Positions 3,368-12,710 of a DNA stretch of 64,000 nucleotides are shown one piece after another (position 1 is the first letter of the stretch; every line of letters begins with the position of its first letter). The notes under the pieces were generated by a model. It was given only the letters and a program-made list of their open reading frames with translations. It did no database searches and was not told where the DNA came from. The DNA is from Promicromonospora soli. GTDB lineage: Bacteria > Actinomycetota > Actinomycetes > Actinomycetales > Cellulomonadaceae. The stretch is taken from contig NZ_BNAS01000010.1 of NCBI RefSeq assembly GCF_014653785.1, forward strand, positions 1 through 64,000, in the 5' to 3' direction. A program made the position numbers and the translations under genes.

Positions 3368-5086
3368 TCAGCCGCGAGCCGCGAGGTGTGCCAGCCAGCC
3401 ACCGGACGCCGTGATGTCGCGGGCCCCGTCGAGTGCCGCGGGTTCGCACAGGAAGCCGGAGACCTCGGTGTTGTCGGCCAACAGCACCTTGCCGATGGTC
3501 ATGGGCGCCGGGACCGAAGCCACGAAGTCGCCGAACCCGGCGGGCGTCAGCTCCCAGACCTCGGCCTCGATCGGGGCGCCGCCGTCGGACACGCGGACCA
3601 GACCCGGCTTCGCCGGGGTCGTGTCCAGGGCGAAGAGCCGGTACACGGGCGCGGTGGTGGTCGCAGCAACCAGGCGGCCGCCGCGGTCGACGAGCTGATG
3701 GTTGAGCGGCTGCCCGCTCAGGTGCGCGCCGACCACGGCGATCGGGACCACGACAGGCGGCGCCGATGCGGGCGGCACCGCCACGTGACCCTCGGCGAGC
3801 AGCTCGGCGACGCCCGCGAGCAGGCCGTCGCTGAATGCCGGCCCCACCAGCTGGACGCCGAACGGCAGGCCGTCCGCCTCCCCCGCCGGCACCGCGAGAG
3901 CGGACATGTCCAGGAGGTTCGCGAAGTTGGTGAACCGGCCCAGGTCGGAGTTCACGCCCACCGGGTTCGCCCCGACCTCGGCGAGGGTGGGGTGCCGCGT
4001 CGTCGTCGGGAGCAGGAGGGCGTCCGTGCCGGCGAGCGCGCTGCGCGCTGCCAGGCCCAGCTCGTCGAGCCGGGCCATGTCCGCGAAGAGCTCGTGCGCC
4101 AGGGGCGCGGCCGCCCTGCCGATGATCGCGCCGACCACGGGGTCGACGGCGTCCGGATGGCTCGCCACGAACTCCCCCACGGCGGCATACCGCTCCGCGA
4201 CGAAGGCCCCCTCGTAGAGCAGCCGCGCGGCAGCCAGCAGGGGCCCGATGTCGACCCGGCGCACGCGCGCGCCCGCACGGACCAGGCGGTCGACGGCAGC
4301 CTCGAAGGCCTCCGCCCAGCCGGGGGCGAGCGGGCCCAGCGCCTCGGGCGCAGGGACCGCGACGACGGGCGGGCCGCCGTCGGACCCGGCGCCCCGCACC
4401 GCGTGCCAGTCCGGGGGCAGGTCGCGCGCCAGGGGGTCGACGCCGTCCGGCCCGGCCAGGCTCAGCAGGGCCCGGCGCGCAGTGGCCAGGTCCCTCGCCA
4501 GCACCGTCACGCAGTCGAGCGAGCGGCACGCGGGCACGACGCCGGTCGCCGGCACCACGCCGCGCGTCGCCTTGATCCCGACGAGCCCGTGCAGCGCCGC
4601 CGGCACCCGGCCCGACCCGGCCGTGTCCGTGCCGAGCGCCACGTCGACGATTCCCAGCGCCACCGCGACGGCGGAACCGCTCGACGACCCGCCCGAGATC
4701 CGCTCCGGCGCCGTCGCATGCCGCACCGCGCCGTACGGGCTGCGCGTGCCCACCAGGCCGGTGGCGAACTGGTCGAGGTTCGTGGTGCCGAGCACCAGCG
4801 CACCGGCCGCCCGCAGGCGGGCGACCGCCGTCGCGTCCCGGTCGGGCGAGTAGGCGAATGCCGGGCACCCCGCCGTCGTCGGCAGCCCGGCGACGTCGAT
4901 GTTGCCCTTCACCGCCGCGAGCAGCCCGGCCAGCGGCAGCTCTTCCCCCGCCTCGAGCCGCCGCGTGACCTCGTCGGCGTCGGCCAAGACGTCGGCGCGC
5001 GCACGCAGGTCGATCCACACCTCCGGCCGGTCCACCTCGGCGACCCGGGCATACGCGGCCTCGACCCGCTCGACGAGCGCGTTCAC
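3368..5086 (-). CDS. atzF: Allophanate hydrolase
   Basis: A 572-residue amidase-signature enzyme with the extra C-terminal domain typical of allophanate hydrolases. It hydrolyses allophanate to ammonia and CO2 in the cytoplasm, the last step of carboxylase-dependent urea or guanidine use. Visible catalytic elements are Lys60 in VKGNID, the cis-Ser region GGSSSGS at 132-138, and the nucleophile in GTDTAGS at 152-158. The AtzF C-domain spans roughly 450-572 (SGQPLNHQL, NTEVSGFLCEP). Its ATG overlaps the carboxylase stop by 4 nt (ATGA), so it is the last gene of the operon read leftwards from 10270, and the two products presumably channel allophanate. Length is normal for the bacterial single-domain enzyme. 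Confidence 0.93.
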   Translation of the reverse strand: MNALVERVEAAYARVAEVDRPEVWIDLRARADVLADADEVTRRLEAGEELPLAGLLAAVKGNIDVAGLPTTAGCPAFAYSPDRDATAVARLRAAGALVLGTTNLDQFATGLVGTRSPYGAVRHATAPERISGGSSSGSAVAVALGIVDVALGTDTAGSGRVPAALHGLVGIKATRGVVPATGVVPACRSLDCVTVLARDLATARRALLSLAGPDGVDPLARDLPPDWHAVRGAGSDGGPPVVAVPAPEALGPLAPGWAEAFEAAVDRLVRAGARVRRVDIGPLLAAARLLYEGAFVAERYAAVGEFVASHPDAVDPVVGAIIGRAAAPLAHELFADMARLDELGLAARSALAGTDALLLPTTTRHPTLAEVGANPVGVNSDLGRFTNFANLLDMSALAVPAGEADGLPFGVQLVGPAFSDGLLAGVAELLAEGHVAVPPASAPPVVVPIAVVGAHLSGQPLNHQLVDRGGRLVAATTTAPVYRLFALDTTPAKPGLVRVSDGGAPIEAEVWELTPAGFGDFVASVPAPMTIGKVLLADNTEVSGFLCEPAALDGARDITASGGWLAHLAARG

Positions 5087-8000
5087 GCCGCCATCTCCTC
5101 AGCCACCACCACGAGCACCCGCCCCGGCCCCACCTGCTCTCCGGTCGCCACGTGCACGGAGCTGACCACGCCGTGGGCGGTCGCGGTGACTGGTGCTTCC
5201 ATCTTCATGGCCTCCAGGGTGATGAGGGTGTCGCCGGGCACCACCGCGTCGCCCGGCTCGACGTCGACCCGGAACACCGTGCCGACGAACGGCGCCTCGA
5301 CGCCGTGCGCGCCGGGCGGGACCGGCACGCCGACGGCGGCGGGCGCAGCGACCGGCTCCGGCCGCGGCTCGAACTCCCCCGCCGCCGCCCAGGCCTCGCG
5401 CTCGGCCTGGAACGCGGCGGCCTGCCGCTCGCGGAACCCCGCGATGGGCCCGGCGTTCTGCTCGAGGAACCGCTGGTACTCGGCGAGGGCGAACTCGCCG
5501 TCCTCCACCCGCAGCTCGAGACGGCCGGCGGCGGCCTGGTCACGCAGCCCCCCGAGCTCCTCGGAGGACACCGGATACCAGCGGATCCGGTCGAAGAACC
5601 GCAGCAGCCACGGGGTTCCCGGCCGGAACGAGCCGCGCTGTGCGTGCGTGGACCACACCTGCGTGGTGCGGCCCACGAACTGGTACCCGCCAGGCCCTTC
5701 CATCCCGTAGATGCACAGGTAGGCGCCGCCGATGCCCACGGCATTCTGGGGCGTCCAGGTGCGCGCCGGGTTGTACTTGGTGGTCACCAGCCGGTGGCGC
5801 GGGTCCAGCGGGGTGGCCACGGGCGCGCCGAGGTACACGTCGCCCAGGCCCAGCACCAGGTACTCGGCGTCGAAGACCGTCCGGTAGACGTCCTCCACCG
5901 TGTCCAGCCCGTTGATCCGGCGGATGAACTCGATGTTCCACGGGCACCACGGGGCGTCGTCGCGCACACCGGCCATGTACCGGCGGATGGCCTCGCGCGT
6001 GGCCGGGTCGTCCCACGACAGCGGCAGCCACACGGTGCGCGAGGGCACCACGAGCTCGGCGGTGGGCGGTAGCGCGGCGTCGACCTCCTGGACCAGGTCG
6101 AGCGTCTGCCGCAGGGTGAGTACCGCCGGGTCGAGGTGCACCTGCAGGGACCGGATGCCGGGCGTCAGGTCGAGGACTCCCGCGGCCCGCAGCGCACGGG
6201 TCACCGCCGGGTCGTACGTGCTCGCGGCGTCGCGCGGCACGCCGAGCCGTTCGTACAGGCCCTCGGCCAGCGCATGCACCCGGATGCGTGAGGCGACGTC
6301 GAGCTGCATGGGCCCGTACTCGACGAGCAGGTTGTCGTCGCCGCTGCGCCGGTACGTGACCTCGGGCGACACCTGCGTACCGCCCCGGATCACGGCCGGC
6401 ACGCGGGCGAGCACACCGCCGTCGGACACGGCGTCGCGGTCGGCGATGGCCTGCCGCAGCGGTGCGGCGCGCAGGGCGTCCGCCTGCGCCTCGCCCACGG
6501 GGACGAAGCGAACCGTGTCGCCGGGCCGGAGCTGGCCGAGCTTCCACAGGTGACCCACCGCCACGGTCGCCGGACAGGTGAAGCCGCCCAGGCTGGGCCC
6601 GTCGGGACCCAGGAGGATCGGGAGGTCGCCCGTGTAGTCGACGGCGCCCACGGCGTACGGCGTGTCGTGGATGTTCGAGGGGTGCAGGCCGGCCTCGCCG
6701 CCGTCGGACCGCGCCCAGGTGGGCCTCGGGCCCACGAGCCGCACGCCGGTGCGCGCCGAGTTGAAATGCACCTCCCAGTCCGTGGCGTAGAACTCGGCCA
6801 TGTCTTCGATCGTGAAGAACTCCGGCGCCGCGTGCGGCCCCTCCAGGGCCGCAACCTCCCACCGTTCGGGAATCTCCGGCCGCTCCTCCGGCGGCACGGG
6901 CTTCGCCTGCCCGGACCCGGAGGGGTCGCCCAGGCGGATTACGTCACCCGTGCGCAGGGGCGCGCCGGTGGTGCCGCCGATCTCGCCCAGGTCGAACGTC
7001 GCCGCCGAGCCCAGGATCTGTGGGGCGTCGATCCCACCCACCACCAGCACGTAGGTGCGCATGCCGCGGGCGGGGGCTCCGACGTCGAGCACGGCGCCCG
7101 GCCCGAGGGAGAGCGGCTCCCACTGGGCCGCGGGGACGCCGTCGACGGTCACCGGCGCCGGCGCGCCCGTGACCATGACTGTGGCGCCGGTGCGGAACCG
7201 CAGCGCCGGGCCGTGCAGCGTGCACTCCAGGCCGGGCGCACCCTCAGGGTTGCCCAGGGCCTGGTTGCCGAGGCGGAACGACAGGTCGTCCATCGGCCCC
7301 GACGGCGGGATGCCCACGTGCCACAGCCCCGTGCGGCCCGGCCAGTCCTGGATGGTGGTCAGCATGCCCGGCCGCATCACCTCGAACCGCGGCGAGGCGT
7401 CCGCGACGTGCGCCAGCGTCCCGGTGTCGTGGCGAGCAGCGACGACGTCGGGGTGGTCCGGCAGCGCGGCGAGCAGGCCCAGGTTGGTGGCCACGCCGTC
7501 GATCCGGGAGCCGTCGAGGCCACGGGCGAGCGCGGCCCAGGCCTGCTCACGGTCCTCGCCGCCGGCGATCACCTTGGCCAGCAGCGGGTCGTAGTGCGCC
7601 GAGACGGTGGTGCCGGCCTCGACCCAGGTGTCGACGCGGACGTCCGCCGGGAACGCGGCGTGCGTGACCGTCCCCGCGCTGGGGGCGTTGTCCCGGTCGG
7701 GGTTCTCGGCGTAGACGCGGGCCTCGACGGCGGCGCCGCGAGGGGCGCGCGGGGCGTCGAGCCACTCGCGCACCATGCCGCTGTCGCCGCCGGCGAGCCG
7801 CAGCATCCAGGCGACGAGGTCGACGTCGTAGACGGCCTCGGTGACGGGGTGCTCCACCTGGAGGCGCGTGTTGACCTCGAGGAACGAGGCCTCCTCGCGC
7901 TCGGCGTCGTAGACGTACTCGACTGTGCCCGCCGAGCGGTAGCCCACGGACGCGGCCAGGTCGCGGGCGGCGTCGGCGATCCGGGTGCGGACGGCGTCCG

Positions 8001-8751
8001 GGAGGTGCGGCGCGGGCGCCTCCTCGACCACCTTCTGGTTCCGGCGCTGCAGGGAGCAGTCCCGGTCGCCCAGCGTGACGACGCCGCCCGCGCCGTCGCC
8101 GAACACCTGCACCTCGATGTGGCGCGCGCGCTCGACGAGCCGTTCCAGGAAGACGTCGGCCGTGCCGAACCCCGCAGCCGCCGTCCGGCGCACGGCGTCC
8201 CAGGCGGCGACCAGCTCGTCGGCGTCCCGGCAGGCACGCATCCCGATCCCGCCGCCGCCGGCGGTGGCCTTCAGCATCACGGGGAACCCGATCCGCACGG
8301 CCTCAGCAACGGCGTGGTCGACGTCGGTGAGCAGGCCGGTCCCGGCGAGCAGGGGAACACCGGCCGCCTGCGCGGCAGCCCGCGCGGTGTGCTTGGCGCC
8401 GAACAGCTCCAGGTGCTCCGGCGTCGGCCCGGCGAAAGCAAGCCCGGCTTCCTCGACCTGGCGGGCAAAGCCCGCGTTCTCGGACAGGAAGCCGTACCCG
8501 GGGTGGATCGCGCCCGCGCCGGTTCGCAGCGCGGCCTCCACCACCAGGTCCCCGCGCAGGTAGCTCTGCGCGGCGGGGGCTGGCCCCAGCGGCACCGCCT
8601 CGTCGGCGAGGTGCACGTGCAGGGCCCCGGCGTCGGCCGCCGAGTGGACCGCGACGGTGCGCAGGCCAAGGGCGCGCGCCGTCCGGATGATTCGTACGGC
8701 GATCTCACCGCGGTTCGCGACGAGCAGCGTGTCGTAGGGCAGCCCCGTCAT
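5083..8751 (-). CDS. Biotin-dependent urea/guanidine carboxylase
   Basis: This 1222-residue protein has the full urea-carboxylase architecture. An N-terminal biotin carboxylase with ATP-grasp fold begins at TLLVANRGEIAVRI and has the glycine-rich loop TAGGGGIGM near residue 175. A KipA/KipI-like carboxyltransferase follows in the middle, and a biotinyl domain with EAMKM (modified Lys near residue 1180) closes the protein. It carboxylates an amide or guanidinium nitrogen with bicarbonate and ATP. Proteins encoded with two DUF1989 genes, as here, have been shown in other bacteria to be guanidine carboxylases; true urea carboxylases usually lack those partners. I therefore favour guanidine, but an alignment is needed. 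ATG 8751 is chosen because it overlaps the upstream stop by 4 nt; an ATG 48 nt further upstream would intrude into that gene. Confidence 0.93.
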   Translation of the reverse strand: MTGLPYDTLLVANRGEIAVRIIRTARALGLRTVAVHSAADAGALHVHLADEAVPLGPAPAAQSYLRGDLVVEAALRTGAGAIHPGYGFLSENAGFARQVEEAGLAFAGPTPEHLELFGAKHTARAAAQAAGVPLLAGTGLLTDVDHAVAEAVRIGFPVMLKATAGGGGIGMRACRDADELVAAWDAVRRTAAAGFGTADVFLERLVERARHIEVQVFGDGAGGVVTLGDRDCSLQRRNQKVVEEAPAPHLPDAVRTRIADAARDLAASVGYRSAGTVEYVYDAEREEASFLEVNTRLQVEHPVTEAVYDVDLVAWMLRLAGGDSGMVREWLDAPRAPRGAAVEARVYAENPDRDNAPSAGTVTHAAFPADVRVDTWVEAGTTVSAHYDPLLAKVIAGGEDREQAWAALARGLDGSRIDGVATNLGLLAALPDHPDVVAARHDTGTLAHVADASPRFEVMRPGMLTTIQDWPGRTGLWHVGIPPSGPMDDLSFRLGNQALGNPEGAPGLECTLHGPALRFRTGATVMVTGAPAPVTVDGVPAAQWEPLSLGPGAVLDVGAPARGMRTYVLVVGGIDAPQILGSAATFDLGEIGGTTGAPLRTGDVIRLGDPSGSGQAKPVPPEERPEIPERWEVAALEGPHAAPEFFTIEDMAEFYATDWEVHFNSARTGVRLVGPRPTWARSDGGEAGLHPSNIHDTPYAVGAVDYTGDLPILLGPDGPSLGGFTCPATVAVGHLWKLGQLRPGDTVRFVPVGEAQADALRAAPLRQAIADRDAVSDGGVLARVPAVIRGGTQVSPEVTYRRSGDDNLLVEYGPMQLDVASRIRVHALAEGLYERLGVPRDAASTYDPAVTRALRAAGVLDLTPGIRSLQVHLDPAVLTLRQTLDLVQEVDAALPPTAELVVPSRTVWLPLSWDDPATREAIRRYMAGVRDDAPWCPWNIEFIRRINGLDTVEDVYRTVFDAEYLVLGLGDVYLGAPVATPLDPRHRLVTTKYNPARTWTPQNAVGIGGAYLCIYGMEGPGGYQFVGRTTQVWSTHAQRGSFRPGTPWLLRFFDRIRWYPVSSEELGGLRDQAAAGRLELRVEDGEFALAEYQRFLEQNAGPIAGFRERQAAAFQAEREAWAAAGEFEPRPEPVAAPAAVGVPVPPGAHGVEAPFVGTVFRVDVEPGDAVVPGDTLITLEAMKMEAPVTATAHGVVSSVHVATGEQVGPGRVLVVVAEEMAA

Positions 8752-9416
8752 GGGCGCGTCACGATCACCCGGACGGGCGTCGGGTCGAACCCGTTGCACG
8801 GGTTGTTGATCTGCGGGCAGTTGGAGATCAGCACGAGCACGTCGCGCTCCGCCCGCACGGAGACGGCCAGGCCGGGGGCGGAGATGCCGTCCACGATGCC
8901 GAGCGCGCCGTCCGGGTCCACCGGCACGTTCATGAACCAGTTGATGTTGGAGACCAGGTCGCGCTTGCCGAGCCCATGCCTGGATCCGCCCAGCAGGAAG
9001 TTCTCGACGCAGGCGTGCTGGGCCCGCGTGTGGTGCCCGTAGCGCAGGGTGTTGGACTCCTTGGAGCAGGCGCCGCCCAAGGTGTCGTGACGGCCGCAGG
9101 TGTCGGCCACGACGGTCATGAGCGGGCCGTGCTCGGCGTCGCGGAGCACGCTGCCGGTCGTGAGGTAGATCGTGTCCTGGCCCTGGAGGGTGTCGGGGGC
9201 GCTGTACCGGAGCTCGGTGTCGTGCGCGTCGTAGACCAGGAAGTCGACGGCCTGGTTGCCGCCCACGTCCACCATCGTGAGCGTGTCTCCGGCGGCGATC
9301 ACCCGGGTCCAGGGGTTGCGGGCGGCCACGGTCTCGTCGTGGATCACGACGGCGTCCGTTGCGACCTCCGGGGGAACGATCGCGAGCGGGGCGGCGGTGG
9401 CTGGGGCTGTGGTCAT
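8748..9416 (-). CDS. DUF1989 protein (urea amidolyase-associated protein 2), probable carboxyguanidine deiminase subunit
   Basis: A 222-residue DUF1989-family protein of the type annotated as urea amidolyase-associated protein 2. Visible family features are GGNQAVDF near residue 50, the Cys/His-rich DTCGRHDTLGGACSKESNT block near 110-125, and NCPQINNPCNG close to the C-terminus; the Cys and His residues probably bind a metal. In characterised guanidine-using bacteria the two DUF1989 proteins form a heteromeric carboxyguanidine deiminase that makes allophanate for the hydrolase. The gene overlaps both neighbours by 4 nt (ATGA), giving tight translational coupling in the order protein 1, protein 2, carboxylase, hydrolase. 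The guanidine assignment is inferred from family and context. Confidence 0.85.
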   Translation of the reverse strand: MTTAPATAAPLAIVPPEVATDAVVIHDETVAARNPWTRVIAAGDTLTMVDVGGNQAVDFLVYDAHDTELRYSAPDTLQGQDTIYLTTGSVLRDAEHGPLMTVVADTCGRHDTLGGACSKESNTLRYGHHTRAQHACVENFLLGGSRHGLGKRDLVSNINWFMNVPVDPDGALGIVDGISAPGLAVSVRAERDVLVLISNCPQINNPCNGFDPTPVRVIVTRP

Positions 9417-10270
9417 CGGTCTGCTCCTCGCGTGCGGCGGTGGGCTGTCGAGTTCTCGTACGCGCGGCGGCCCTCTGGCGTGGCGTCCCACGCGGGGTCG
9501 CCGGGCACGGTCGGCGCCCCGGGCCAGGCCACGACGTCGAGCGGGCCGGCGGTGAACTCGGGCCTGGGGTCCAGCGGGTGGGCGGTGCTCGCGAGCAGCA
9601 CGATCAGCGGCAGCTCGGCCACGAGGGTGATGCTCGCGGGCCCGGACGAGCCGACGAAGGCGGGCCGTCCGTCGTCGGACACCGACACGCCCTCGAAGAA
9701 CGTGACGCTCGGGGGGATGTCGCGCCGCGTCAGCCCGTGCTTGGCGGCGGCGAGCGCGAAGAGCTCGCGTCCGGCGGGGCTGGGGCCGAACACGTCCCCG
9801 CTGCCGTAGCGCTCCGCGTTGCGGACCAGCGTGGAGGTGCCGAACAGGGCGTCGTGGCGCGGCGCGTCGGCACGGTTGCCGGCCGTGTCCTCGACGATCG
9901 TCGCGAGCGCGCGGCCCTGGTCGGACAGGAGGAGGTGGCCCGCGGTGAGGAAGGCCTGCCACTGGACCTTGACCGTGTCGGCAACGTTGAGGCGCTCGGT
10001 CGGCTGATCGGCGTGGAACACCAGCAGGTGGGCGCATGCGTCGCCCGTCGTGTCCCGCACGCGCACACGTGTGCCGGCGGCGACCACGAGGCTCGTGTAC
10101 CCGCCGGGCGGCACCGTCTCGGCCCAGACGAGGTCGCCCGCCGAGACGCCCGGTGACAGCTCGCCCACGTAGGCGGACGCGGGGTGAAGCACCCGGGGCA
10201 GCTCGGCTGCGGCTGCCAGCTCCTGCTCGCGGGCGTGGGCCTTCGCGCCCGTGGTGGTCGCGGTGGTCAT
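9413..10270 (-). CDS. DUF1989 protein (urea amidolyase-associated protein 1), probable carboxyguanidine deiminase subunit
   Basis: A 285-residue DUF1989-family protein, first gene of the carboxylase operon. The conserved RDTTGDACAHLLVFHADQ region near residues 75-93 and PSVTFFEGV near 200 fit urea amidolyase-associated protein 1, the presumed partner of the next gene product. I place the start at ATG 10270 because a perfect AGGAGG Shine-Dalgarno precedes it at 5-nt spacing; an in-frame ATG at 10291 has none. About 28 nt upstream of the start is the palindrome 10298-10311, and the divergent TetR gene begins at 10390. The cytoplasmic heteromer would deiminate carboxyguanidine to allophanate plus ammonia. 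Substrate remains inferred. Confidence 0.85.
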   Translation of the reverse strand: MTTATTTGAKAHAREQELAAAAELPRVLHPASAYVGELSPGVSAGDLVWAETVPPGGYTSLVVAAGTRVRVRDTTGDACAHLLVFHADQPTERLNVADTVKVQWQAFLTAGHLLLSDQGRALATIVEDTAGNRADAPRHDALFGTSTLVRNAERYGSGDVFGPSPAGRELFALAAAKHGLTRRDIPPSVTFFEGVSVSDDGRPAFVGSSGPASITLVAELPLIVLLASTAHPLDPRPEFTAGPLDVVAWPGAPTVPGDPAWDATPEGRRAYENSTAHRRTRGADR

Positions 10271-10297
10271 GGCACCTCCTGGGGTCTCCATGGGTTT

Positions 10298-10311
10298 CTG
10301 TCGAGTGACAG
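10298..10311. promoter_or_regulatory. Candidate TetR operator A, CTGTC-N4-GACAG
   Basis: A perfect 5-4-5 palindrome, CTGTCGAGTGACAG, sits between the divergent TetR and DUF1989 genes, just downstream of a plausible leftward -10 (TATTCC region). The same 10 fixed bases recur at 11093-11106 ahead of the symporter gene. Flanking TT and AA extend the symmetry partly. Binding by the adjacent TetR protein is inferred from position and repetition. Confidence 0.7.
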
Positions 10312-10389
10312 GAATAGGTTTTCGCCCGAGTGTTTCCCCCGGGCGTACAGCGAGGTAAATCCTGAGTTACACCGGGTAGCGTCAGGCGA

Positions 10390-11112
10390 GTGACCTCCTC
10401 GATCGTCGACAAGGGCGCCACGCCCACACCGCGGCGCCCCGGCCGCCCCCGCGCCGACGGCGCCTCGCCCACGGGCCGCGGCACCGAGTCGGACCTCCTG
10501 TCCGCGGCCGCGCGCCTCTTCTGCACGGTGGGCTACACGGCCACGTCGACCCGCGCGATCGCCGACGCCGCAGGCGTGCGCCAGGCGTCGATCTACCACT
10601 GGTTCGGGACCAAGTCCGCGATCCTCCAGCGGCTGCTGCTCGACTCGGTCGAGCCCTCGCTCGAGTCCGCGCGGCTGCTGCTCGCCCGGCCGGAGGCGCC
10701 GGCAGTGCGGCTCTGGGCGCTCGCGCGGCTCGACGTCGAGCTGCTCTGCTCGGGCGACCTCAACATCGGCGCGCTCTACCTGCTGCCCGAGGTCGCCGAC
10801 GACGGGTTCGCGACCTTCCGCGAGCATCGCGAGCAGCTGCGGGCCGCGTACGGCGACCTGGTCTCGGGAACTGTCGGGTCAGACGTCGGGCCCGACGATG
10901 CCACCGCCATGGTCCTGACCTTCGTGGAGAGCGTGATCCTGCGGCGCCGCGACGAGCCGGGGCTCGACGCCGCGAGGGCCGGGCAGCGCTACGCGGACCT
11001 GGTACTACGGCTGCTGGGACTGGACGACGACGCCGTCGCCCGGGCTCATGAGGCGGGCTCCGCACTGGCCGATACGGTCCGTCGCAAGAAACCTGTCGCC
11101 CGACAGAATTAA
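10390..11112 (+). CDS. TetR-family regulator of the carboxylase locus
   Basis: A 240-residue TetR-type repressor. After a flexible basic N-terminus (residues 1-30) the DNA-binding domain shows the standard helix-turn-helix TRAIADAAGVRQASIYHWFG at 54-73; the rest is the variable ligand domain. GTG 10390 is favoured because TAGCGT lies 7 nt before it, giving a leaderless mRNA, and no Shine-Dalgarno is present. The gene is flanked by two copies of CTGTC-N4-GACAG, one before the divergent operon and one overlapping its own 3' end ahead of the symporter. It therefore probably represses both and itself indirectly. TetR-type regulators of the AmtR kind control urea-carboxylase operons in other actinobacteria; whether nitrogen status or guanidine/urea is the signal here is unknown. 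Confidence 0.88.
   Translation: MTSSIVDKGATPTPRRPGRPRADGASPTGRGTESDLLSAAARLFCTVGYTATSTRAIADAAGVRQASIYHWFGTKSAILQRLLLDSVEPSLESARLLLARPEAPAVRLWALARLDVELLCSGDLNIGALYLLPEVADDGFATFREHREQLRAAYGDLVSGTVGSDVGPDDATAMVLTFVESVILRRRDEPGLDAARAGQRYADLVLRLLGLDDDAVARAHEAGSALADTVRRKKPVARQN
11093..11106. promoter_or_regulatory. Candidate TetR operator B, CTGTC-N4-GACAG
   Basis: CTGTCGCCCGACAG overlaps the last codons of the TetR gene and lies about 120 nt before the symporter start. It has the same ten fixed bases and spacing as operator A. Between it and ATG 11229 is a leader of about 120 nt holding a GC-rich stem near 11161-11184 (atgggtcc / ggaccccat). Confidence 0.68.
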
Positions 11113-11228
11113 CGCAGTCGTTCCACACGCGCGACACGGGTGTGACGCGCGGCGAGGTGAATGGGTCCTGCTACCGGACCCCATCCATTCTGCCGCGCGC
11201 CACGCGGCCCTCTTTTGAGGAGCCACCC

Positions 11229-12710
11229 ATGATCATCGCAGGAATCGGCGCGACGGTGCTCGCCGTCGTCGTCATCGGAATAGTCGTCGCCCGAAAGGTC
11301 GACGGCGACTCGGCCAACTACCTCGTCGCCGGGCGCCGCCTGGGCGTACCGCTCGTCGGGGCGTCTCTCATGGCGGCCGCCGTGGACTCCAACGCCACCG
11401 TCGGCAACACCGACCTGACGTCGCTGTTCGGCTTCTGGTCGGGGGCGTCGCTGGCCCTGGGCCTGGCGATCTGCCTGTTGCTCACGGGCCTCTTCCTGGC
11501 CAGGCGGCTCAACGGCATGGGCCTGTACACGCTCGCCGACTACTACCGGAACCGCTACGGGCGCGGTGTCGAGGTCGCGGCGTCGGTGCTGATGATCTTC
11601 GCGTTCGCGATCCTCATGGCCGGCAACCTCGTGGCGTGCGGCTTCCTCCTGGAGCACTTCGCCGGGCTGCCGTACTGGGCAGGCGTCGTGATCGCCGTGA
11701 CCCTCGTGCTGATCTACACCGTGGGCGGCGGCATGTTCTCCGACGCCTACACCGCGGCCGTCCAGATAGTCATCACGCTGGTCGCCACGGCTGCGCTCGT
11801 GATCTGGTTCGGGATGACCATCGGCTTCCAGGTGCCCGAGGGCATGGGGCCGTTCGACATGGAGCAGCTGACCTCCACCGACCTCGGCGCGCCGATCAAC
11901 TGGGCCACGCTGATCTCGCTCGGCATCGGCGACATCGTCGCCATCGACTTCATGCAGCGCGTCTTCTCGGCCCGGACGCCGCAGATCGCACGCCGCGCCT
12001 GCTTCACCGCCGCCGCCGGCACCGCCGCGATCGGCGTCGCGTTCGCGATGGTGGCGCTGGGCTCGGCGGCGATCGGCATCGACGCCACCGACGGGCCTAT
12101 GCTCTTCACGCTGCTCTCGGACCACGCGCCGGTGTGGCTCGCCGTCCTGGTGCTCTCGGGCATCGTCGCGGCGTCGTTCTCCACCGCTTCTGGCGCGATC
12201 CTGGCCACGTCCGCGGTGGCGGTGCGCAACATCCTGGGCGTGCGCCGCGTCGCTCCGGCCGACGGGACGTACGACCCGCTGCTGCGCTGGACGCGGCTCG
12301 CGATGCTGCCGATCGTCGTGGTCGGGACCGTGATCGCGCTGACCGTTGCGCAGACCGGGATCCTGCTCACCCTCGCGTTCGACCTGATGCTGGCCTGTCT
12401 CGCGGTCCCGTTCCTGCTCGGGGTGTTCTGGAAGCGCGGCGGCACCGCTGCGGCGGTCGCCGCGATGGTCACCGGCCTCGTGGTGCGGTTCGGCCTGTTC
12501 GTGCTCACGCCCACCATCTACGGGGCGCCCAACGACATCGCGTACATCCCGAACGACCTGGTCCCCGCGACGTTCGACGGCTGGCCCACGATCTACGGGG
12601 CGATCGTCTCGATCGTGGCGTACGTGGTGGTGGCGCTCGCGCGGCCGGCTTCCGAGCCTGTGGAGCCCAAGTCCGAGCCCGAGGAGGAGATGGAGCCGGC
12701 GGTGGCGTGA
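11229..12710 (+). CDS. Sodium:solute symporter (SSS family), probable urea or guanidine importer
   Basis: A 493-residue integral membrane protein of the SSS/SLC5 fold with about 13 hydrophobic segments. Family hallmarks include YLVAGRRLG near residue 34, an AVDSNATVGNTDL segment in the first core helices, and the GIVAASFSTASGAILATSA region near 310-330. The C-terminus is acidic and cytoplasmic. The SSS family includes the fungal urea transporter DUR3. Placement behind the TetR gene and the second operator copy makes uptake of the same nitrogen compound used by the carboxylase the most likely job. ATG 11229 follows a GAGGAG Shine-Dalgarno at about 8 nt; upstream in-frame starts would lie in the leader. 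Substrate is inferred only. Confidence 0.85.
   Translation: MIIAGIGATVLAVVVIGIVVARKVDGDSANYLVAGRRLGVPLVGASLMAAAVDSNATVGNTDLTSLFGFWSGASLALGLAICLLLTGLFLARRLNGMGLYTLADYYRNRYGRGVEVAASVLMIFAFAILMAGNLVACGFLLEHFAGLPYWAGVVIAVTLVLIYTVGGGMFSDAYTAAVQIVITLVATAALVIWFGMTIGFQVPEGMGPFDMEQLTSTDLGAPINWATLISLGIGDIVAIDFMQRVFSARTPQIARRACFTAAAGTAAIGVAFAMVALGSAAIGIDATDGPMLFTLLSDHAPVWLAVLVLSGIVAASFSTASGAILATSAVAVRNILGVRRVAPADGTYDPLLRWTRLAMLPIVVVGTVIALTVAQTGILLTLAFDLMLACLAVPFLLGVFWKRGGTAAAVAAMVTGLVVRFGLFVLTPTIYGAPNDIAYIPNDLVPATFDGWPTIYGAIVSIVAYVVVALARPASEPVEPKSEPEEEMEPAVA

Follow-up and report, generated by a model that had tools for sequence, protein, structure and literature searches.

An AmtR-type repressor and its putative paired operators at a predicted guanidine utilization locus of Promicromonospora soli

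A stretch of 64,000 nucleotides from Promicromonospora soli, referred to below as the window, carries an amtR-type tetR gene flanked by two copies of the same palindrome. Our main reading, to which a probability of about three in four is given, is that this AmtR acts on two operators of the TTTCTRTC-N4-GACAGAAA type and keeps off a carboxylase operon and a symporter gene whose substrate is most likely guanidine, thus taking the place of a riboswitch. In the mechanism that we infer, an AmtR dimer would bind operators 1 and 2 and, while bound, would keep the transcripts of both operon and symporter off. Upon release of AmtR the substrate would be imported and carboxylated, the product deiminated by UAAP1 and UAAP2, and the resulting allophanate hydrolyzed to ammonia and CO2. 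The repressor may also regulate its own gene, because operator 1 is located in the gap common to UAAP1 and amtR. A preliminary description of this DNA had anticipated a compact regulon of uptake and catabolism under one repressor, and as a prediction this is supported, like the shared operator; amtR is located between the UAAP operon and the SSS symporter gene.

The amtR gene (10390-11112, plus strand, GTG start) encodes a protein of 240 residues displaying a Pfam TetR_N domain and matching AmtR in sequence and fold. It is followed on the plus strand by the gene of an SSS-family sodium/solute symporter of 493 residues (11229-12710), a predicted importer that matches Pfam SSF, remains below the cut-off of the NCBIfam model sss and whose substrate we infer. 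The minus strand holds the predicted guanidine carboxylase pathway set as an operon, all four products scoring above the NCBIfam cut-offs: UAAP1 (9413-10270, TIGR03425, DUF1989), UAAP2 (8748-9416, TIGR03424), a biotin-dependent carboxylase annotated for urea and predicted here to act on guanidine (5083-8751, TIGR02712, with the Asp705 discussed below) and allophanate hydrolase (3368-5086, TIGR02713). Two ATG starts are possible for UAAP1, one at 10270 and the other at 10291, the mechanical ORF start; a perfect AGGAGG precedes 10270, the likely start, and operator 1 therefore falls outside the UAAP1 gene. Positions 1-24000 of the window gave no match at the Rfam gathering score, and control of the operon by an RNA switch of a known kind was therefore rejected. 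A scan of 10150-11300 for consensus sigma-70 sequences found no promoter. The inverted repeat CGCCCG/CGGGCG at 10323-10345 was dropped as a part, its left arm being altered in one of three congeners. At positions 4-490 of the window, overlapping frames encode PEPVR-type repeats in a short tandem repeat region.

The motif CTGTC-N4-GACAG matches the window at two positions only, CTGTCGAGTGACAG at 10298-10311 and CTGTCGCCCGACAG at 11093-11106. The preliminary description had reported these palindromes, with identical half-sites and spacing, on either side of the TetR gene, and both are present with amtR between them. It had also placed one at each promoter; the flanking is correct, but the second site lies inside the last amtR codons and not in free intergenic DNA. 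The rarity it had claimed holds in the window, where the mean of dinucleotide shuffles is 0.10 and two copies arise in one of 100 shuffles, but is overstated for the genome. The whole-genome scan that it had proposed identified eight places in 5.38 Mb; about 8.4 are expected when the window rate is extrapolated, and the ten bases alone are therefore at chance level genome-wide. Ten congeners display one to six places each and three to six for the backwards control, which matches the P. soli genome itself at one place. With the count near chance and the congeners similar to the control, the ten-base core was rejected as informative by itself at genome scale. The closeness of the pair did stand out, the window pair being the only one spaced by less than 1 kb among the eight places. 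The informative features are thus the close pair around one tetR gene and a longer palindrome, the ten-base core being weak evidence. Two observations speak for the palindromes being chance matches or the sites of another factor, namely this genome-wide core count and the location of site 2 within a coding frame, so that selection on codons preserves it as well; the counts that bear against such an origin come from the longer palindrome and are given below.

The conserved unit extends beyond the core and reads TTTCTRTC-N4-GACAGAAA. Sites were given an extended score, which counts how many of the 16 fixed positions in TTTCTGTC-N4-GACAGAAA they match. Putative operator 1 (10295-10314, core 10298-10311) reads TTTCTGTC-GAGT-GACAGGAA and matches 15 of the 16 bases. 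It occupies the gap that separates UAAP1 from the divergently oriented amtR, and the likely UAAP1 start is 24 bp downstream of it. Putative operator 2 (11090-11109, core 11093-11106) reads AACCTGTC-GCCC-GACAGAAT, occupies the last amtR codons ahead of the stop at 11110-11112, upstream of the symporter and 122 bp before its ATG at 11229, and matches 12 of 16. The remaining six core places of the genome score 10, 10, 10, 11, 11 and 12; since one of them equals site 2, the latter is not outstanding by sequence. What makes it a candidate is where it lies, together with the equivalent site that relatives have ahead of the SSS gene, AACCTGTC-N4-GACAGAAA. A terminator-like element noted at operator 2 on the minus strand was taken as a by-product of the palindrome. 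With up to three mismatches allowed, the longer pattern is found at two places of the genome, site 1 (one mismatch) and an unrelated place (three mismatches), in a scan that weaker sites such as site 2 escape. The backwards control yields four places under the same conditions, and only the one-mismatch match is therefore informative.

By sequence and fold, the TetR protein is an AmtR. Its closest solved relative is M. smegmatis AmtR (MSMEG_4300, PDB 5e57, E 2.3e-38), the regulator of the msmeg_2184-2189 regulon, followed by C. glutamicum AmtR, and none of the NCBIfam models reached its cut-off for this protein. When the AlphaFold model (39 sequences, mean pLDDT 87.8) was submitted to fold comparison, M. 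smegmatis and C. glutamicum AmtR entries occupied ranks 1 to 14. M. smegmatis AmtR is reportedly the subject of a 2016 study by Petridis that may contain the M. smegmatis operator. The likeness to AmtR suggested in the preliminary description is thereby borne out by sequence and fold, as well as by the position and spacing of the operator half-sites. The C. glutamicum AmtR box, tttCTATN6AtAGat/aA, has its half-sites at the same position and with the same six-base spacing, and differs in the third half-site base, CTAT-N6-ATAG as opposed to the CTGT-N6-ACAG of both sites here (PMC2723105); relatives show CTRT. The conserved C8/G13 of the CTGT/CTRTC half-sites and Arg55 are found here, whereas C. 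glutamicum AmtR has His43. The C. glutamicum contacts Gln53, Ser55 and Tyr57 align with Gln65, Ser67 and Tyr69 of our regulator, while Tyr58 is replaced by His70 and His59 by Trp71, two differences that argue against the binding being simply homologous. Mutation of His59 to Ala strongly affected DNA binding by C. glutamicum AmtR (PMC2723105); position 71 is His in 68 of 70 operon-linked relatives, drawn from the best 80 of at least 571, and Trp in two. C. glutamicum AmtR has at least 35 target genes, whereas two sites were found here, and no broad nitrogen regulon of the C. glutamicum kind emerged from the three-mismatch scan, which returned site 1 and one three-mismatch place and passes over weak sites.

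A scan of genome contigs provided at least 571 AmtR relatives, the best 80 of which constitute the locus set; 70 of these 80 loci carry UAAP1. Of the 70 UAAP1-bearing loci in this best-80 set, 63 have a best extended score of 13 or more, 67 one of 12 or more and 24 the full 16, while locally shuffled loci (n=30) reach 11 at most. An operator scoring 13/16 or better lies no farther than 1 kb from amtR in 63 out of the 70 operon-bearing loci. The seven loci below 13 comprise three below 12 (L109, L111, L112), two with 12 near amtR (L057, L120) and two with 12 at more than 1 kb from it (L096, L107). Two of the ten loci of the best-80 set without UAAP1 reach 13 (L064 and L104, both short contigs). 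Two sites of at least 13 are present in 17, and an SSS match in 23, of the 70 UAAP1-bearing loci from the best 80. As in P. soli, amtR is located between the operon and the SSS gene in 12 Cellulomonas loci, with two operators, one per promoter, and in these AACCTGTC-N4-GACAGAAA stands 57-92 bp before the SSS match. An APC permease is the transporter at L070 and L078, the two loci examined among those with no SSS match, and at L202 from the class sample described below. The L202 locus (3459-5132 and 12689) displays one operator at the 5' end of the APC permease gene and a second one 9 kb away, before UAAP1; in its genus, g73, each of ten genomes has two extended-pattern places with at most one mismatch. 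Closer to P. soli, three of 12 congeners have an AmtR orthologue and all three keep both sites, the changes in the operator 20-mers being confined to the central four bases; these footprints are modest evidence, because good conservation within the genus extends over the entire gap. Among six more distant loci the paired core is present in L013-L015, and the ten-base core is missing from L016-L018, that is from three of the nine AmtR loci of related genomes.

The association was also evaluated in 394 genomes of the class, 42 of which encode UAAP2. AmtR (E up to 1e-25) is found in 36 of these 42 versus 6 of the 352 others. The pattern TTTCTRTC-N4-GAYAGAAA, with at most one mismatch, occurs in 32 genomes (26 with UAAP2, 28 with AmtR), compared to five of 394 for the backwards control. 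Its 43 places are mostly close to these genes, 34 being within 15 kb of UAAP2 and 37 within 15 kb of AmtR, with four near neither. Fisher tests give p 2e-38 for the co-occurrence of AmtR and UAAP2 and p 3e-28 for that of AmtR and the pattern, both on the assumption that the genomes are independent, which they are not. The pattern is missing from 14 of the 42 AmtR genomes, ten of which have UAAP2, hence from 10 of the 36 genomes with both proteins. Among the 42 genomes with UAAP2, only three gave a guanidine-I riboswitch match over the cut-off, in each case at about 3 kb or less from the UAAP2 gene. AmtR is missing from all three, as is the operator pattern (Fisher p 0.0017 and 0.049, the genomes again not being independent). 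Three more UAAP2 genomes show sub-threshold guanidine-I matches far from UAAP2, and three (G167, G223, G245) have neither AmtR nor such a riboswitch. No Rfam guanidine riboswitch was found at 27 AmtR-linked loci, 24 of them from the best 80 of at least 571. AmtR in Actinomycetes seems to hold the place of the guanidine riboswitches present elsewhere. Riboswitch operons such as those of Rhizobium etli p42e and Pantoea agglomerans pFC61912-B_A share with this locus the genes for UAAP1 and UAAP2 and for a carboxylase, which is full-length and has the same Asp. They feature riboswitches of the guanidine-I and guanidine-II classes, and their importer is of the ABC type, where P. soli has a protein repressor and an SSS symporter. 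The AmtR operator is not confined to guanidine genes: genome G060 has, at a distance of 400 kb from UAAP2, a second AmtR relative with a perfect TTTCTGTCGTGTGACAGAAA operator next to an ABC transporter gene of the oligopeptide type (L203, 1041-3946), and G104 and G339 have AmtR with an adjoining operator and no UAAP2.

Operator and protein also vary together. Deviations at C8/G13 affect none of 136 half-sites with Arg55 and 4 of 14 with His55 (p 5e-5, best 80 of at least 571); the score used for this comparison ignores the C8/G13 positions, and 13 of the 80 loci without such a site drop out. Four His55 loci carry variant sites, and since the His55 loci are this few (four), the covariation is treated as a lead. 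Residue 55 of AmtR is a likely specificity residue. C. glutamicum AmtR has His43 at the equivalent position together with a non-conserved base, while TetR combines Arg with a conserved one (PMC2723105). That Arg55 is sufficient for the operator was not upheld, seven of 70 Arg55 loci having no site by the covariation score. A group of AmtR paralogues from Cellulomonas and Cellulosimicrobium (L061, L066, L067, L076, L086, L094) has Tyr55 instead of Arg or His; neither operon nor operator was found in the fetched stretch of these six, three of which are on short contigs. The variation with residue 55, the company that the extended site keeps with AmtR across the 394 genomes and its presence beside amtR in 63 of 70 loci from the best 80 of at least 571 all argue against chance matches or another factor's sites, which are considered very improbable.

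The carboxylase has Asp705 (codon 6637-6639) where K. lactis urea amidolyase has Asn1330. This column is presumably the diagnostic Asp/Asn position of the carboxylases, which is supported by the Asp found there in three full-length riboswitch-operon enzymes (L205, L206, L209). Asp marks guanidine carboxylases and Asn urea carboxylases (PMC12186494). The guanidine-type Asp is present in 69 of 69 loci with a readable segment, out of the best 80 of at least 571, and in six further pathway loci. Speaking against the marker, three actinomycete guanidine-I riboswitch operons (L198, L199, L200, from G072, G140, G079) have Met at this position; their carboxylase is a divergent form, the match starting only at the carboxyltransferase part. 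UAAP1 and UAAP2 are taken here to be the subunits of carboxyguanidine deiminase. A guanidine pathway including such a deiminase has been described (PMC11410670). Database names and the M. smegmatis literature speak of urea metabolism (PMC4222082, PMC10704036), according to which the operon would degrade urea and AmtR control urea use; the Asp of all 69 readable linked enzymes and the presence of both UAAP proteins make this improbable and, for the same two reasons, guanidine appears to be the more likely substrate. Guanidine had been named, beside urea and ammonium, among the growth conditions of interest in the preliminary description.

The signal that releases the repressor was considered separately. 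With the same repressor and operators, nitrogen status, which the preliminary description had suggested as the signal, could be sensed without any small molecule, adenylylated GlnK (PII) stripping AmtR from DNA. GlnK has this effect on C. glutamicum AmtR (PMC4617892), neither urea nor amino acids release M. smegmatis AmtR (PMC4222082), and the P. soli genome encodes one P-II protein. P-II is nearly universal, however (13 of 14 control genomes), and D115, E134 and E180 are invariant in 80 of 80 relatives (the best of at least 571) and in M. smegmatis AmtR, the C. glutamicum protein having E, I and M at these positions. Release by GlnK is judged less likely than not. The invariance pattern of these three residues is the sole basis of a tentative proposal, that Actinomycete AmtR proteins are sensors of guanidine (or carboxyguanidine), with D115, E134 and E180 holding the guanidinium and the protein switch replacing the riboswitch in this lineage. 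If this is true, the C. glutamicum protein would be derived, having lost the pocket and become subject to GlnK, and the regulon published for AmtR would be wrongly assigned to urea.

AmtR control of such operons is already known from a 2013 publication, where it is described as urea metabolism (PMC4222082). According to that account, the targets of repression by M. smegmatis AmtR are the genes of a permease, a 'urea carboxylase' and an amidase along with two unknown frames; the homologous genes rise in an amtR mutant, AmtR shifts a permease promoter fragment, and ten Actinobacteria have amtR together with urf1/urf2 and the genes for carboxylase, amidase and permease. The statements of that source used here make no mention of guanidine (PMC4222082). 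M. smegmatis has amtR away from the operon and a permease of the amino acid type, whereas here amtR is located between the operon and an SSS symporter gene, with an operator on each side. What is new is that the AmtR-linked carboxylases carry the guanidine-type Asp, from which AmtR may be read as a repressor of guanidine use in Actinomycetes, in place of a riboswitch. A literature search linking AmtR and guanidine, with subscription journals mostly outside its scope, returned two insect papers only; one on guanidine, carboxyguanidine deiminase and Actinobacteria regulators, of similar scope, gave none on AmtR by title among the matches listed. Guanidine riboswitches are described in a 2025 review as the only known guanidine receptors besides transporters and enzymes, and guanidine-binding regulatory proteins may yet be found (PMC12186494). 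This locus and its relatives provide a candidate family of guanidine regulators together with the operator of that family, a residue that likely governs specificity and residues that may contact the ligand, and the proposal can therefore be tested with one purified protein and short DNA. If our reading holds, the assignment of the AmtR regulon to urea in the literature would be corrected, and the protein described here would most likely do what an RNA switch does in many other bacteria.
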